Shown: one piece after another, positions 6,640 to 40,677 of the stretch | How the letters are laid out: the number at the start of each line of letters is the position of its first letter | Position numbering within the stretch: the first letter of the stretch is position 1 | Origin: Acidaminococcus massiliensis | GTDB taxonomy: Bacteria; Bacillota; Negativicutes; Acidaminococcales; Acidaminococcaceae | Assembly (NCBI RefSeq): GCF_900095825.1 | Contig: NZ_LT608315.1 | Coordinates: 1,352,311-1,416,310, forward strand | Direction: 5' to 3' | Length of the DNA: 64,000 nt | Program-made: the position numbers and the translations under genes | The notes under the pieces: generated by a model | What the model was told of the DNA's origin: nothing | The model's database searches: none | What the model saw: the letters and a program-made list of their open reading frames with translations, nothing else

Positions 6640-6779
6640 GGGTCACGGGTCGCGGGCCATGAGTCGCGGGCTTTGACCGCAATCTCCTGAGGATCCTGCT
6701 GCTTTGCAACAAAAGACAGAGCATGATTCTGCAGATGGGAAAAACGGCCTTCTGGTTCAATGGAACAATGCTCGCGACC
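6640..6779. repeat. Heptad-repeat element A (GGGTCGC family)
   Basis: Directly after proS the sequence runs in exact 7-base steps: GGGTCAC (6640), GGGTCGC (6647), GGGCCAT (6654), GAGTCGC (6661), GGGCTTT (6668). At the right end (about 6766-6779) the same heptads occur in inverse orientation, GCGACCC preceded by a GAGCATT complement. The roughly 90-base interior is non-coding. The layout, inverted heptad arrays around a short core, matches the element at 18351. No gene is seen in 6638-6873. Confidence 0.7.
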
Positions 6780-6796
6780 CAGGCTGCTTTCAGCAG

Positions 6797-6852
6797 CTGA
6801 CCGTTGACAGTTGACCGTTGACGGTTAAAAGGCAACAGTTGACAGTTGGCAA
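6797..6852. repeat. Heptad array, TTGACAG family
   Basis: Eight consecutive 7-base units in register from 6797: CTGACCG, TTGACAG, TTGACCG, TTGACGG, TTAAAAG, GCAACAG, TTGACAG, TTGGCAA. It lies between element A and the mgtC-like gene, with no coding potential. A two-unit inverted version of the same family is at 22565-22587. The exact 7-base phase separates it from random low complexity. Confidence 0.7.
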
Positions 6853-19592: not shown

Positions 19593-20149
19593 ACCGTACA
19601 CGGAATATGATGGGGGCAGCCCTCTTTACGGCACTCCTCATACTGAGTTCCTATGTGACCATTCCTGTGGGACCGGTGCCGGTGACCCTCCAGACCCTGA
19701 TGGTGCTCCTGGCCGGGTTCTTGCTGGGACCGGTCTGGGGACCGGCCAGCGTGCTGGTCTGGATGCTCTTGGGCTGTGTGGGCTTGCCGGTGTTCAATCA
19801 GGGCCAGGCAGGAATCGTGATGCTGGCAGGGCCCACCGGAGGCTTCATCCTCAGCTTCCCGGTAGTGGCCTGGCTGGCGGGGAAAGTCAGCCGTGGTTCC
19901 TGGGCCGGGGACAGCCTGGGGAAGAACTTCCTGGCCCTGGCCGGGGTGACGGTGGTGTGTTATCTCATCGGTGCCCTGGGCTTTCGGCTGAGCTTCGCCT
20001 TTTTCCTCCACAAGCCCATGACCTGGGAAAAGACTATGGTCCTTGCCGTGGCGCCTTTCCTGCCTCTTGACATCGTAAAGGCCTTCATCACCGCCTTCCT
20101 GGGCATCCGGATCCGCCGGGCCCTTAAGGCCGGGGGGATGTGGGAGTAA
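19589..20149 (+). CDS. bioY: Biotin transporter S-component BioY
   Basis: Substrate-binding membrane subunit of an ECF-type biotin importer. 186 residues with about six hydrophobic helices. The family block VTIPVGPVPVTLQTLMVLLAG is at residues 23-43, then GPTGGFILSFP and PLDIVKAFITAFLG near the end. The ATG overlaps the birA stop as ATGA, and AAGGAAAGGGG lies upstream. No ECF ATPase or T-subunit gene is in the window. Coupling with birA implies common biotin control. Confidence 0.93.
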   Translation: MNRTRNMMGAALFTALLILSSYVTIPVGPVPVTLQTLMVLLAGFLLGPVWGPASVLVWMLLGCVGLPVFNQGQAGIVMLAGPTGGFILSFPVVAWLAGKVSRGSWAGDSLGKNFLALAGVTVVCYLIGALGFRLSFAFFLHKPMTWEKTMVLAVAPFLPLDIVKAFITAFLGIRIRRALKAGGMWE

Positions 20150-20177: not shown

Positions 20178-20223
20178 GGTCTCATGAGCCGCATAGCGGC
20201 TCGAGGACTCACGACTCGAGACC
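20178..20223. repeat. Palindromic heptad remnant, GAGTCGC family
   Basis: GGTCTC at the left is mirrored by GAGACC at the right. Between them are a GAGCCGC-ATAG-CGGCTC hairpin and units such as GAGTCGT and GAGTCCT on the complementary strand. It resembles the ends of elements A and B without a core. A minimal relative, GGTCTCGAGAC, is at 29760. Confidence 0.5.
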
Positions 20224-20230
20224 TGAAAAA

Positions 20231-20408: not shown

Positions 20409-21179
20409 ATGTTAATGGTAATGGATGTTGGAAATACCAACATCGTGGTTGGAGTTCATGATGGCAAGACTTGGCAGGCCCACTGGAGGATTTCCAGCAG
20501 CCGTTCCCGGACTTCGGATGAATTCGGCATCATCCTGGGGAGCATGTTTGCCTACAGCGGAATGGATATGAAGGACATCGAGGATATCATCATTTCCACG
20601 GTAGTCCCTCCGCTCCTGGTTCCTCTGTGCAACATGTGCAAACGCTTTTTCAGCATCACTCCTTTTGTAGTCACCAGTGAAATCAATACGGGACTGAAGC
20701 TGGACTACGATGATCCTTCCCAGATCGGGGCGGACCGGATCGTGAATGCGGTGGCGGCCCACAACATGTACGGGGACAAGGGGAACCTGATCATCATCGA
20801 CTTCGGGACGGCCACCACATTCTGCGCTCTGACGCCAGCCGGAGAATATCTGGGGGGAGCCATTGCTCCAGGCATCGGCATTTCTACAGAAGCCCTGTTC
20901 CAGAAAGCAGCAAAGCTGCCCCGGATCGAACTGATCAAACCCCCAAAAGCCATCTGCCGGGACACCATCCATGCCATGCGGTCCGGGGTCATCTTCGGTT
21001 TCGTGGGGCAGATGGACGGTCTGATCACCCGGATGAAGAAGGAACTGGGAGGCCAGGCTTTTGTCATCGCTACCGGCGGCTTCGGCAAGCTCATGGCCAG
21101 CGAATCCGAATTGGTAGACGTAGTGGAACCTTTCCTGACCCTGGAAGGCCTGCGGATCTTGCATGAGATGAACAAATAA
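20409..21179 (+). CDS. coaX: Type III pantothenate kinase
   Basis: First step of coenzyme A synthesis: phosphorylates pantothenate. ASKHA-fold protein. The phosphate-binding MDVGNTNIVVGVHDG is at residues 4-18, GADRIVNAVAA near 105-115 and IIDFGTATTFCAL near 125-137. The ATG at 20409 is chosen over upstream in-frame codons because GGAGGG lies eight bases before it and the family's motif begins right after. 256 residues is typical. It stands alone behind a strong promoter and a structured leader. Confidence 0.95.
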   Translation: MLMVMDVGNTNIVVGVHDGKTWQAHWRISSSRSRTSDEFGIILGSMFAYSGMDMKDIEDIIISTVVPPLLVPLCNMCKRFFSITPFVVTSEINTGLKLDYDDPSQIGADRIVNAVAAHNMYGDKGNLIIIDFGTATTFCALTPAGEYLGGAIAPGIGISTEALFQKAAKLPRIELIKPPKAICRDTIHAMRSGVIFGFVGQMDGLITRMKKELGGQAFVIATGGFGKLMASESELVDVVEPFLTLEGLRILHEMNK

Positions 21180-21182
21180 TTT

Positions 21183-21530
21183 CGTCATACGTCAGACACC
21201 GATGGAAGCCAGCTTTGCTGGCATCAAGATAGGAGTTGCCAATAAGAGAGTAAAAAGGAATGCCGGTATTTTTGGCTTTGGATATACAGGTATTAATTTC
21301 TTCTTGTTTGCACGGTTTGAATAATGCAAGAAGAGATGAAGATGATGTATTCCTATAAAAAACTAAGTGTGTGGCAAAGTGCAATGAACTTAGCAGTATT
21401 AGTCTATCAACTTACTCAGATAACAAGCATTAAAGCCTAAAATGAACCATTCGTGCAAATAAGAATGAATCAATTAAAAGCCAGGAATCCAATCAGATTC
21501 CTGGCTTCCTTAAGCGTATGACGTATGACC
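21183..21530. repeat. Heptad-flanked element E (CGTCATA family)
   Basis: Left end: CGTCATA (21183), CGTCAGA (21190), CACCGAT. Right end: TATGACG (21517) and TATGACC (21524), which are the inverted heptads. Between them are about 320 AT-rich bases holding a truncated four-helix-bundle gene (21336-21440) and a perfect 12-bp hairpin AAGCCAGGAATC / GATTCCTGGCTT near the right end. The low GC content contrasts with the flanks. A relative with the same heptads is at 52177. Confidence 0.65.
21336..21440 (+). pseudogene. Truncated four-helix-bundle (23S rRNA IVP/S23-type) protein gene
   Basis: A 34-codon ORF reads SYKKLSVWQSAMNLAVLVYQ, the hallmark N-terminus of the 23S rRNA intervening-sequence protein family (four-helix bundle, about 115-125 residues in full copies). 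It diverges after LTQ and stops at 21438, so about three quarters of the protein is missing. No frame nearby restores the rest. It lies within the heptad-flanked element and is far more AT-rich than the host genes. Assignment rests on motif memory of the YKKLxVWQxAMxLA pattern. Confidence 0.65.
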
Positions 21531-21549: not shown

Positions 21550-22545
21550 ATGACAACTCAAACCCAACAAACGCTGCAAACCTTCCGCCCGCCCCAGACA
21601 ACTCCCATTGCCCTTGCCCCTATGGCCGGAGTTACGGATCTTCCTTTTCGGGTGATCTGCCGAGAGCTGGGGGCGGATTATACGGTTTCGGAAATGGTCA
21701 GCGCCAAGGCGCTGCTGTTCCGGAATCCCAAGACCTTTGCCATGCTGGAAGTGGATCCCCGGGAGCATCCGGTGGCCATCCAGCTGTTCGGTTCTGTACC
21801 GGAGGAACTGGCCCGGGGGGCAAAGATTGTGGCAGAACACGGGGCGGACATCATCGATTTCAATATGGGCTGTCCGGTGCATAAAATCGTGGCCAACGGG
21901 GAAGGGTCCGCCTTGATGAAAGATCCGGAACGGGCCTATGCCTGTCTGGCTGCCCTGGTAGATGCAGTGGATCTGCCAGTGACGGTGAAGTTCCGGGCCG
22001 GCTGGGATGAGGAACACCGGAACGCGGTAGAAATCGCCCAATTGGCGGAAAAGGCCGGGGTGGCGGCAGTGGCGGTCCACGGACGCACTCGGGGCCAGTT
22101 CTACAGCGGCAGGGCAGACTGGGACATTATCCGCCAGGTGAAGGAAGCGGTGTCCGTTCCCGTGCTGGGGAACGGGGACGTATTCAGTGCCCAGGACGCC
22201 CTAGACCTTTTGGAAGCTTCCCACTGTGACGGGATCATGATCGCTCGGGGCGCTCAGGGGAACCCTTGGATCTTCCGAGAGGTGAAGGCGGCCCTGGCAG
22301 GCCTCCCCATCCCCCCGGTGACCCTTGAGGAACGGTTCACCATGGTCCGGCGCCATCTCCGGGACCTCATCGCTTTCAAGGGAGAGAAGGTGGCCATCCG
22401 GGAAATGCGCCACCACGGAGCCTGCTATTTCACTGGTCTCCCTCATAGTGCCCGCTACCGGAACGTCATCAACCAGTGCTTGACCCGGGACGCCTTTGAA
22501 CAGGTATTGGAGGAATATGAGGGGGAATTGGAAAAGGGGGAGTGA
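21550..22545 (+). CDS. dusB: tRNA-dihydrouridine synthase (DusB-like)
   Basis: FMN enzyme that reduces uridines in the tRNA D-loop. TIM-barrel N-terminal region with LAPMAGVTDLPFR (residues 18-30), catalytic-cysteine block DFNMGCPVHKIV near 100-111, then VTVKFRAGWDEEH and GRTRGQFYSG, and a C-terminal helical domain. 331 residues fits DusB. The ATG follows GGAGAAAAGAAA. The gene is convergent with the serine hydrolase at 24170. The terminator they shared is now split by an IS element. Confidence 0.93.
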   Translation: MTTQTQQTLQTFRPPQTTPIALAPMAGVTDLPFRVICRELGADYTVSEMVSAKALLFRNPKTFAMLEVDPREHPVAIQLFGSVPEELARGAKIVAEHGADIIDFNMGCPVHKIVANGEGSALMKDPERAYACLAALVDAVDLPVTVKFRAGWDEEHRNAVEIAQLAEKAGVAAVAVHGRTRGQFYSGRADWDIIRQVKEAVSVPVLGNGDVFSAQDALDLLEASHCDGIMIARGAQGNPWIFREVKAALAGLPIPPVTLEERFTMVRRHLRDLIAFKGEKVAIREMRHHGACYFTGLPHSARYRNVINQCLTRDAFEQVLEEYEGELEKGE

Positions 22546-22564: not shown

Positions 22565-22587
22565 GTCAACGGCCGCTGACCGTTGAC
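22565..22587. repeat. Inverted heptad pair, TTGAC family
   Basis: GTCAACGG (22565-22572) and CCGTTGAC (22580-22587) form a perfect 8-bp inverted repeat with a 7-base spacer. The units match the TTGACAG heptads at 6797. It sits between dusB and its terminator. Confidence 0.55.
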
Positions 22588-22671: not shown

Positions 22672-23517
22672 TTATGCTGCCAGCAAAGAAAGCCTGTATT
22701 GAACAGGACTTTTCCAGCCCAGTTTTTCCTTGATCCTTTGTTCGTTATAGTATTTGATGTATCGTTCGATAGCGGCTTTTAGTTCTTCGTAGCTGTAGTA
22801 GATCACTCCATAATACATTTCCTGTTTCATTAAGCCGAAAAAGTTTTCCATTACAGCGTTATCATGACAGTTACCCTTTCGAGACATGCTCTGAAAAATT
22901 CGTTCTTTTTTTAGTTTCCTGGTATAGGCCTTCATTTGGTATGCCCAGCCCTGATCGGAGTGAAACGTTCTTCGATATGGACAATCAGCAGTAATTTCGA
23001 TTGCTTCAGCTTGAGCTTCCAGTATGCTTTCAGCCGAAGGACGTTTGGCTATTCCATAGCTGATGATTTCATCATCGAACATGTCCAGGAAAGGATCCAG
23101 ATAAAGCTTGTGCAGGGTCAGATGTCCCTGTGTATCTACTTCATAATATTTGAATTCTGAAGTATCGGTCGTAATCTTCTGATGTGGGATATTCGTCTCA
23201 AAACGACGATGTATTCTATTCGGAGCAATGGTCCCTACCTTACCCTTATAGGAACTGTATTTACGGCTTTTCCGGGTAAAGGATGTTACCTGAAGGCTCA
23301 GTTTCTGCATGATACGTTGAACTTTCTTCTTGTTCACGCAAATCCCTTGATTCTTCAGCTCACCGGTCATGCGCCGATATCCATAATCTTTATGCTGGCT
23401 GCGGATTTCCTGTATTTTGTCCTCTACTTCCTGGTCTGGATTCACGCGGTCAAACCGTTTCTGCCAGTACATATAGGTCGCTTTGGGCATTTGAGTATAG
23501 GAGAGAAGGTCTTTCAA
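22672..23517 (-). CDS. IS3-family transposase OrfB (DDE integrase domain), copy 1
   Basis: 281-residue catalytic protein. An N-terminal HTH_21-like region (IRSQHKDYGYRRMTGEL) is followed by the rve core with D in TTDTSEF, D in FHSDQGW and E in NAVMENFFG. The TTG start overlaps the orfA stop by one base each way. The frame is open upstream as far as the orfA slippery sequence, so the active product is likely an OrfAB fusion made by -1 frameshifting. Identical in sequence to copy 2. Confidence 0.93.
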   Translation of the reverse strand: MKDLLSYTQMPKATYMYWQKRFDRVNPDQEVEDKIQEIRSQHKDYGYRRMTGELKNQGICVNKKKVQRIMQKLSLQVTSFTRKSRKYSSYKGKVGTIAPNRIHRRFETNIPHQKITTDTSEFKYYEVDTQGHLTLHKLYLDPFLDMFDDEIISYGIAKRPSAESILEAQAEAIEITADCPYRRTFHSDQGWAYQMKAYTRKLKKERIFQSMSRKGNCHDNAVMENFFGLMKQEMYYGVIYYSYEELKAAIERYIKYYNEQRIKEKLGWKSPVQYRLSLLAA

Positions 23518-24092
23518 TTTGAATGATCTTCGGAGACTGGAGATGATTTTCGCAACTCTCTCATTTTTGCTTCGTCCTCTAAACGCAGTCTCCTCAGTTC
23601 TTTTAAAAAAGCATTCTCTATACGGAGTTTAAGATTTTCATCCTCTAACTCCTTGACATGTTCCACACTGATGTCGACCATCGGCTGCTGAACCTGGGTA
23701 TCTGTTTTTTTTGTTTGAGATTTGTTCAAAGTTCTCTTCCTGCCTTTTTTATATGACCGTAAAGCATCTGGTCCCGCAATTCTAAATTCATTGACCCATC
23801 TGGCAATCATTGATGGGTTGTTGATCCCTACTTGAATTGCTAGTTCCTGATATGAGATTTCATTTGTTAAGTAAGACTCTACCACAGAAAGTTTTTCTTT
23901 GAAAGAGTATATTTTTTGAGAGCGGGATCTTTTCAGTCCATCATCACCAAATGCCTTGTAAGCAGCAACCCACTTTAGCAGCTGGCTGCTACTTGCCATC
24001 CCATATTTACGTGAAATAGAAATACACCCTTCGTCACTGTTCAAATATTCCAGTACTATTTTTTTCTTAAATTCATAGCTGTGTTTTGCCAT
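23514..24092 (-). CDS. IS3-family transposase OrfA, copy 1
   Basis: 192-residue DNA-binding protein with two helix-turn-helix units (about 1-55 and 60-115), each followed by an aromatic-rich linker, and a leucine-heptad region near 135-165 (ENLKLRIENAFLKEL). The minus-strand sequence T TTA AAA G (around 23598-23606) in the orfA frame is a plausible -1 slippery site because the orfB frame stays open from there. It differs from copy 2 by one residue (Tyr versus His in the SxKKGRK segment). Confidence 0.9.
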   Translation of the reverse strand: MAKHSYEFKKKIVLEYLNSDEGCISISRKYGMASSSQLLKWVAAYKAFGDDGLKRSRSQKIYSFKEKLSVVESYLTNEISYQELAIQVGINNPSMIARWVNEFRIAGPDALRSYKKGRKRTLNKSQTKKTDTQVQQPMVDISVEHVKELEDENLKLRIENAFLKELRRLRLEDEAKMRELRKSSPVSEDHSN

Positions 24093-39256: not shown

Positions 39257-40102
39257 TTATGCTGCCAGCAAAGAAAGCCTGTATTGAACAGGACTTTTCC
39301 AGCCCAGTTTTTCCTTGATCCTTTGTTCGTTATAGTATTTGATGTATCGTTCGATAGCGGCTTTTAGTTCTTCGTAGCTGTAGTAGATCACTCCATAATA
39401 CATTTCCTGTTTCATTAAGCCGAAAAAGTTTTCCATTACAGCGTTATCATGACAGTTACCCTTTCGAGACATGCTCTGAAAAATTCGTTCTTTTTTTAGT
39501 TTCCTGGTATAGGCCTTCATTTGGTATGCCCAGCCCTGATCGGAGTGAAACGTTCTTCGATATGGACAATCAGCAGTAATTTCGATTGCTTCAGCTTGAG
39601 CTTCCAGTATGCTTTCAGCCGAAGGACGTTTGGCTATTCCATAGCTGATGATTTCATCATCGAACATGTCCAGGAAAGGATCCAGATAAAGCTTGTGCAG
39701 GGTCAGATGTCCCTGTGTATCTACTTCATAATATTTGAATTCTGAAGTATCGGTCGTAATCTTCTGATGTGGGATATTCGTCTCAAAACGACGATGTATT
39801 CTATTCGGAGCAATGGTCCCTACCTTACCCTTATAGGAACTGTATTTACGGCTTTTCCGGGTAAAGGATGTTACCTGAAGGCTCAGTTTCTGCATGATAC
39901 GTTGAACTTTCTTCTTGTTCACGCAAATCCCTTGATTCTTCAGCTCACCGGTCATGCGCCGATATCCATAATCTTTATGCTGGCTGCGGATTTCCTGTAT
40001 TTTGTCCTCTACTTCCTGGTCTGGATTCACGCGGTCAAACCGTTTCTGCCAGTACATATAGGTCGCTTTGGGCATTTGAGTATAGGAGAGAAGGTCTTTC
40101 AA
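39257..40102 (-). CDS. IS3-family transposase OrfB (DDE integrase domain), copy 2
   Basis: Protein identical to the OrfB of copy 1 over all 281 residues, with the same TTG start overlapping the orfA stop and the same three acidic residues (TTDTSEF, FHSDQGW, NAVMENFFG). The intact frame suggests an active element. Confidence 0.93.
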   Translation of the reverse strand: MKDLLSYTQMPKATYMYWQKRFDRVNPDQEVEDKIQEIRSQHKDYGYRRMTGELKNQGICVNKKKVQRIMQKLSLQVTSFTRKSRKYSSYKGKVGTIAPNRIHRRFETNIPHQKITTDTSEFKYYEVDTQGHLTLHKLYLDPFLDMFDDEIISYGIAKRPSAESILEAQAEAIEITADCPYRRTFHSDQGWAYQMKAYTRKLKKERIFQSMSRKGNCHDNAVMENFFGLMKQEMYYGVIYYSYEELKAAIERYIKYYNEQRIKEKLGWKSPVQYRLSLLAA

Positions 40103-40677
40103 TTTGAATGATCTTCGGAGACTGGAGATGATTTTCGCAACTCTCTCATTTTTGCTTCGTCCTCTAAACGCAGTCTCCTCAGTTCTTTTAAAAAAGCATT
40201 CTCTATACGGAGTTTAAGATTTTCATCCTCTAACTCCTTGACATGTTCCACACTGATGTCGACCATCGGCTGCTGAACCTGGGTATCTGTTTTTTTGGTT
40301 TGAGATTTGTTCAAAGTTCTCTTCCTGCCTTTTTTATGTGACCGTAAAGCATCTGGTCCCGCAATTCTAAATTCATTGACCCATCTGGCAATCATTGATG
40401 GGTTGTTGATCCCTACTTGAATTGCTAGTTCCTGATATGAGATTTCATTTGTTAAGTAAGACTCTACCACAGAAAGTTTTTCTTTGAAAGAGTATATTTT
40501 TTGAGAGCGGGATCTTTTCAGTCCATCATCACCAAATGCCTTGTAAGCAGCAACCCACTTTAGCAGCTGGCTGCTACTTGCCATCCCATATTTACGTGAA
40601 ATAGAAATACACCCTTCGTCACTGTTCAAATATTCCAGTACTATTTTTTTCTTAAATTCATAGCTGTGTTTTGCCAT
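40099..40677 (-). CDS. IS3-family transposase OrfA, copy 2
   Basis: 192 residues, differing from copy 1 by a single Tyr-to-His change in SHKKGRK. Two helix-turn-helix modules and a leucine-rich coiled segment. The 19-bp hairpin lies upstream, between the IS end and its ATG, and could hide the start from transcripts entering from outside. Confidence 0.9.
   Translation of the reverse strand: MAKHSYEFKKKIVLEYLNSDEGCISISRKYGMASSSQLLKWVAAYKAFGDDGLKRSRSQKIYSFKEKLSVVESYLTNEISYQELAIQVGINNPSMIARWVNEFRIAGPDALRSHKKGRKRTLNKSQTKKTDTQVQQPMVDISVEHVKELEDENLKLRIENAFLKELRRLRLEDEAKMRELRKSSPVSEDHSN

Follow-up and report, generated by a model that had tools for sequence, protein, structure and literature searches.

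In a 64,000-nucleotide stretch of the Acidaminococcus massiliensis genome (termed here the window), the spacer between coaX (type III pantothenate kinase, 20409-21179, plus strand; PF03309, E = 1.8e-73) and dus (tRNA-dihydrouridine synthase, 21550-22545, plus strand; PF01207, E = 1.6e-99) contains a 346-bp feature with heptad ends (21184-21529), both neighbouring genes lying outside it. The left end consists of a plus-strand array of two units, GTCATAC GTCAGAC (21184-21197), followed on the same strand by the inner motif ACCGATGGA (21198-21206) and by the hairpin GCCAGC-TTT-GCTGGC (21208-21222). The inner motif is a degenerate form of the GCCnnnGGA motif counted in 79 arms of the genus, in which GCCGATGGA is the commonest version. 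The right end is arranged as a mirror image, with a hairpin AGCCAGGAATC-CAATCA-GATTCCTGGCT (21479-21506, plus strand), an inner motif that reads GCTTAAGGA on the minus strand (21507-21515), and an inverted minus-strand array (21516-21529) reading GTATGAC GTATGAC on the plus strand and GTCATAC GTCATAC on the minus strand. The two arms, GTCATACGTCAGACACCGATGGAAGCCAG and GTCATACGTCATACGCTTAAGGAAGCCAG, give a 29-nt inverted alignment whose score was reached in none of 5000 shuffles, and the flanking of a coding fragment by heptads, as claimed in the original prediction, is thereby confirmed. The single heptad CGTCATA is not enriched in the window (4 occurrences against 2.95 expected).

The AT-rich interior of the feature carries, on the plus strand, a 34-codon remnant of an IVP/S23 gene (21336-21440; PF05635), translated as MKMMYSYKKLSVWQSAMNLAVLVYQLTQITSIKA*. 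Its assignment to the N-terminus of this family, likewise predicted from the sequence, is upheld by a match to profile positions 1-21 of PF05635 (E = 0.0033, 18.1 bits, below the curated cut-off) and by identity at 15 of 25 residues with the N-terminus of an intact IVP protein encoded in the same genome (locus L023). Family sequence is kept in approximately the first 25 residues of the remnant and the rest of the IVP gene is absent. Only two units are left in each arm, whereas less damaged copies in the genus have a modal four plus GCC, so that the copy in the window is a decayed one. We consider the feature to be probably what remains, after decay and deletion of the gene, of a small and apparently mobile element whose ends are mirrored 7-base arrays. 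A phage collection searched by DNA gave no match. Further heptad sequences were noticed in the window: an array pair at 6642-6848 whose subtypes do not match (GTCGCGG on the left side, GTCAACG on the right), which may be two elements that abut or have recombined; a short terminator-adjacent remnant of the GTCTCGA GTCGTGA type at 20178-20226, between coaX and the gene ending at 20149; and, downstream of dus at 22565-22587, a minimal inverted pair (GTCAACGGCC GCTGACCGTTGAC) reduced to nearly the arms only.

The genome containing the window (G000, 2.67 Mb, of which 2.46 Mb were covered by the array scan) carries exactly two genes above the PF05635 cut-off of 33.8 bits, L022 (135.9 bits) and L023 (130.7 bits). 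Full-length copies with intact arrays, which the original prediction proposed to look for, were found at both, the genes being enclosed by inverted arrays of GTCTCAC units at L022 and of GTCACTG units at L023. Across the 2.46 Mb, GTC arrays number 148 at period 7 versus 21-78 at other periods, and inverted pairs face inward in 28 cases versus 3, 3 and 3 for the other orientations. The unit subtypes GTCNGRA, GTCTCGR, GTCACTG, GTCGCGR, GTCAACG, GTCTCAC and GTCATAC coexist in this single genome. At least seven MITE-like copies of about 232 bp without a gene have both ends of the 760-bp GTCACTG element of L023 and have in common with it about 110 bp of subterminal sequence from its left part; gene-less copies with the ends of a gene-bearing element, as in MITEs, are thus present, as are terminal inverted repeats of the kind found in 23S rRNA intervening sequences (IVS). 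Gene-less derivatives far outnumber intact copies.

The arms follow a common plan. Four GTCNNNN units followed by GCCNNNGGA form the commonest arm (43 of the 79 genus arms), making five units the modal array in the genus. After the inner motif, 90% of the 79 arms have a hairpin versus 3% in shuffles, and at the outer end of the array 75% of arms abut a hairpin stem of 9 bp or more versus 1.3% of random sites. In the intact layout of the genus, an outer hairpin, usually a host terminator, is followed by an array of about five units, an inner hairpin and the IVP/S23 gene, after which these parts recur in mirror image. By gene calls made with a simple longest-ORF heuristic, 13 of 27 elements lie between convergent genes, 13 between tandem genes and 1 between divergent genes, so that divergent promoters are avoided and placement is mostly downstream of genes. 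A small ORF, possibly cargo, was seen beside a one-sided heptad array at G000:C4:263366-263817 and is absent from the congener G001.

Comparison with congeners revealed that these elements are abundant in a few genomes and vary in position. The pattern GTCN4GTCN4GTCN4GCCN3GGA has 44 matches in G000, 90 in G001, 61 in G004 and 70 in G008, with none for the reversed control in any of the four, and 0-1 in each of the family's 55 remaining genomes. When G000 was compared to 400 kb of G001, about ten orthologous spacers were filled in one genome and empty in the other. At the coaX-dus spacer itself, G001 and G004 carry an element of another unit (GTCAACG/GTCAGCG) with a similar inner layout, G005 carries a fragment with a GTCGC-like piece, and G002, G003, G006, G007 and G008 have a terminator only. 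Empty sites, a further point of the original prediction, therefore exist both at this spacer and among the G000/G001 orthologous spacers; the outgroup state at coaX-dus is accordingly empty, which supports insertion rather than loss. Filled and empty sites compared side by side gave no recognisable target-site duplication, and their flanking hairpins differ. Mobility itself we infer, at the level of sequence comparison, from presence and absence between species together with near-identical dispersed copies.

Two spacers hold intact but different elements in sister species. The pyk spacer is occupied by L023 (GTCACTG) in G000 and by L128 (GTCGGAA) in G004, whose IVP proteins are 61% identical and whose flanks are 89-92% identical, and the L022 spacer holds L022, L139 and L141 in G000, G001 and G003 respectively, with IVP proteins 40-44% identical. 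The presence of different IVP elements at one site indicates insertion hot spots or element replacement; vertical inheritance with very fast change in place could produce the same picture. An IVP gene was not detectable in G008, a 99% complete genome, despite its 70 array ends, a situation that gene loss after amplification would explain.

The association between arrays and IVP genes is not confined to the genus. Arrays of other units accompany the IVP genes of viral contigs and of further genera in the family, and our main test was a scan of 80 loci from many phyla, selected by their IVP gene. Arrays of 7 nt, arrays of 8 nt or inverted arms were found beside the gene at 65 of 74 loci (88%) versus 11 of 69 distal windows (16%). 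A period-7 score of at least 15/21 was obtained in 54.5% of flank windows versus 5.5% of distal windows, whereas other periods reached 0-9% of flank windows, with the exception of the multiple 14 and with a weak signal at 8. As a stricter control, intergenic segments from elsewhere in these 80 loci showed the period-7 signal in 16% (12/73), some of these positives being probably gene-less copies nearby. The left arm aligned in inverted orientation to its own right arm with a score of at least 13 at 54% of loci versus 0.85% for arms of mismatched loci, and no comparison of distal pairs reached 15; similarity of the left and right unit profiles was 5.5 of 7 versus 3.4 for mismatched loci. The array unit thus differs between loci and matches between the two sides of one locus. 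Gene-less arrays of the locus's own unit were counted elsewhere in the genomes of L240 (35), L204 (36), L161 (127) and L198 (89), versus 2, 0, 14 and 0 with reversed controls, overlapping matches being counted throughout; in the genomes of L168, L164, L183 and L222 the shared pattern yielded few or no excess matches.

Full-length genes without arrays, which the original prediction named as its refutation, turned out to be infrequent: the automated criterion returned 9 of 74 loci, several of them with degenerate arrays by eye, to which homologues of the Avd type from diversity-generating retroelements (DGRs) are to be added. There is good support for a widespread class of elements with heptad ends whose gene is the stand-alone S23/IVP gene. 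The proposed partnership between protein and arrays thus stands insofar as intact genes lie between inverted arrays in the genome, the family, viral contigs and other phyla; that IVP moves or maintains the arrays is our best current inference.

A very large number of bacterial genomes carry S23/IVP genes ('four helix bundle protein'), whose function, to our knowledge, has been unsettled since the 1990s, and we know of no catalytic residue in the family. In a set of 29 sequences (A2), 13 columns are invariant, including W11, Y22, Q39, R42, S46, N50-G54, G72, S73 and E76. An AlphaFold2 model of the L023 protein (pLDDT 96) predicts the S23/IVP four-helix-bundle fold, with a TM score of 0.92 to PDB entry 2GSC, and also matches 2RLD, Avd (4DWL) and the Avd chains of DGR reverse transcriptase complexes (8UB7-8UBE). 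Entries 2GSC and 2RLD contain five chains each, and 2GSC, by its title as cited in PMC10053308, was published as a five-bundle assembly. Similarity between IVP proteins correlates weakly with similarity between their units (Mantel r = 0.13, p < 0.01), a correlation to which base composition could partly contribute.

From these elements a mechanism may be proposed, and we find it somewhat likelier than its competitors taken together that an IVP ring reads the heptads and drives movement of the element, of which the window would hold a decayed copy. The protein would assemble into a ring whose five four-helix bundles have an Avd-related fold. This ring would recognise the repeated units, probably in single-stranded form as DNA or RNA, and bring both ends of the element together, whereupon copies would be excised, or else copied, and then joined beside terminator hairpins. 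The moving itself would be done by host replication or repair enzymes or by another enzyme in trans, and gene-less copies could likewise be mobilised in trans. Terminators would be the preferred targets, and an Avd-like pentameric ring would bind the heptads and drive the movement. Units of 8 nt are seen at L126, L134, L145 and L152, and small perfect hairpins stand between the repeat units of the L133, L139 and L141 arrays (e.g. AGTGAAGT-hairpin-AGTGAAGT). Tolerance of both 7- and 8-nt units and of such interruptions suggests reading in single strands, since a duplex reader of fixed phase would not easily allow octads or hairpin-interrupted arrays. The modal five units of the genus speak for a ring that would read units in single strands and the free length of arrays outside the genus speaks against it: arrays elsewhere are not fixed at five and can be long (e.g. 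L196, L205, L222). A strict five-unit array matching a pentamer, modal in the genus as four plus GCC, was rejected on these lengths. The weak correlation between protein and unit similarity is compatible with the ring-reading model. A broader formulation, in which a mobile class of many phyla lacking both a transposase and a reverse transcriptase of its own relies on a non-catalytic pentameric IVP ring that reads tandem 7-nt units in single-stranded DNA or RNA at both ends and steers host enzymes to terminator hairpins, we advance tentatively, as a possibility a little short of even.

Several observations count against a mobile element driven by IVP, namely the lack of a known catalytic residue or enzyme, the lack of a recognised target-site duplication, the different IVP elements that sister species can carry at one site, the apparent absence of Coxiella S23p production in vivo (PMC4990558) and above all G008, the main awkward fact for the model. 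No moving enzyme of the heptad elements was found. A reverse transcriptase acting in trans, by analogy with Avd, was rejected as an obligatory partner, the RVT_1 profile being undetected in the heptad-rich genomes G000 and G001, and so was a Y1 transposase, as Y1_Tnp is undetected in G004 despite its 61 array ends; G000 has only a partial match of 25.9 bits to Y1_Tnp, and Y1 genes are present in G001 and G008. It is conceivable, with perhaps a quarter of our credence, that the IVP gene merely travels with the element or serves its maintenance, encoding for instance an RNA chaperone or a factor for element stability, and that the heptad ends are recognised, and the element moved, by an unrelated enzyme whose gene lies elsewhere. 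Such a role would suit a protein with no known catalytic site, the 70 ends of G008 and the excess of gene-less over intact copies; it fits less well with IVP being the only protein gene that recurs inside arms across phyla, in loci chosen by that gene, and with the finding that neither of the two enzyme families which would best serve hairpin ends or an Avd partner is obligatory.

We regard as improbable a second explanation, that the elements are regulatory or terminator modules selected by the host, similar to BIMEs and spread by recombination, with IVP regulating rather than moving them. Their terminator-like inner hairpins and their position after genes, beside terminators, would agree with this, as would the naming of similar tandem-heptanucleotide families of Geobacter metallireducens (GGGACCG x4 and MTYCTGA x5, the class-3 sites being drawn as folded pairs) as global regulatory elements (PMC2700814); however, presence and absence differ among congeners at many loci, position is not conserved beyond close relatives and a single genome holds several heptad subtypes. 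That the arrays are simple-sequence repeats of the host generated by slippage, into or beside which IVP genes insert, is very improbable, for although unit number varies, arrays can be long and heptanucleotide repeats have been reported with no connection to IVP (PMC4679880, PMC4692102), the arrays are inverted with one unit common to both sides, gene-less copies and the intact element have internal non-repeat sequence in common, the excess of period 7 lies close to the IVP gene, and empty orthologous sites, where slippage is refuted, generally have neither arrays nor gene.

An element moved with the help of its IVP protein, the reading that we prefer, has points in common with several known systems. 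Like the heptad elements, the 23S rRNA IVS of Coxiella and Leptospira have S23/IVP as sole ORF, inverted repeats at their ends and a length of several hundred bp; they are called selfish elements in PMC4990558, where terminal inverted repeats are ascribed to them and where a 1993 proposal of their mobility by Ralph and McClelland is cited. Unlike these IVS, the heptad elements are intergenic, as between coaX and dus in the window, end in 7-nt units and have many gene-less copies. An identity with rRNA-embedded IVS was rejected, as the flanks of 60 IVP loci gave no rRNA hit in an Rfam search at the gathering threshold, a search that partial rRNA could escape. The Avd proteins of DGRs resemble IVP in their four-helix-bundle fold and pentameric state (4DWL, 8UB7-8UBE) and are related to PF05635, whereas the Avd-like loci L138 and L146 have reverse transcriptase matches within about 1 kb and no heptad arms by the automated criterion, and the heptad-rich G000 and G001 have no detected reverse transcriptase. 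With MITEs and REP/REPIN-RAYT systems the elements have in common that they are short, intergenic and rich in hairpins, with gene-less copies beside a rare gene-bearing one; they differ in having tandem 7-nt arrays as ends and, as gene, a helical bundle of no known catalytic activity, and they differ from REP/REPIN-RAYT and IS200/IS605 in carrying no Y1 transposase, none being detected in G004. Tandem 7-nt units also make them similar to reported heptamer repeats, such as TAACTGA in Beggiatoaceae, Cyanobacteria and Bacteroidetes (PMC4679880). A term search of PMC4679880 and PMC2700814 returned no link between such repeats and IVP, and none of the open-access literature searched was found to describe heptad arrays beside IVP genes. 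A class of heptad-ended elements with IVP as its gene, new as far as that literature goes, is in our view well supported.

By tying S23/IVP to heptad ends, gene-less derivatives and empty sites, these data turn an orphan protein family into a defined class of mobile elements and give its protein a direct candidate binding target in the arrays. The class may be a common source of the scattered heptamer-repeat reports and of the IVS in rRNA genes, and its pairing of heptads with IVP suggests a source for the Avd protein of DGRs.

Two minor observations concern neighbouring sequences. In G001 (G001:C1:655142-657288), an acyltransferase gene beside pyk has the opposite orientation to that in G000 and G004 and the inverted stretch ends near the position of a heptad arm, possibly an inversion between heptad arms. 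In the window, an IS3-like insertion sequence with two ORFs occurs twice (22672-24092 and 39257-40677) with equal ORF sizes, and rve and HTH_21 domains are present in the copy at 22672-24092.
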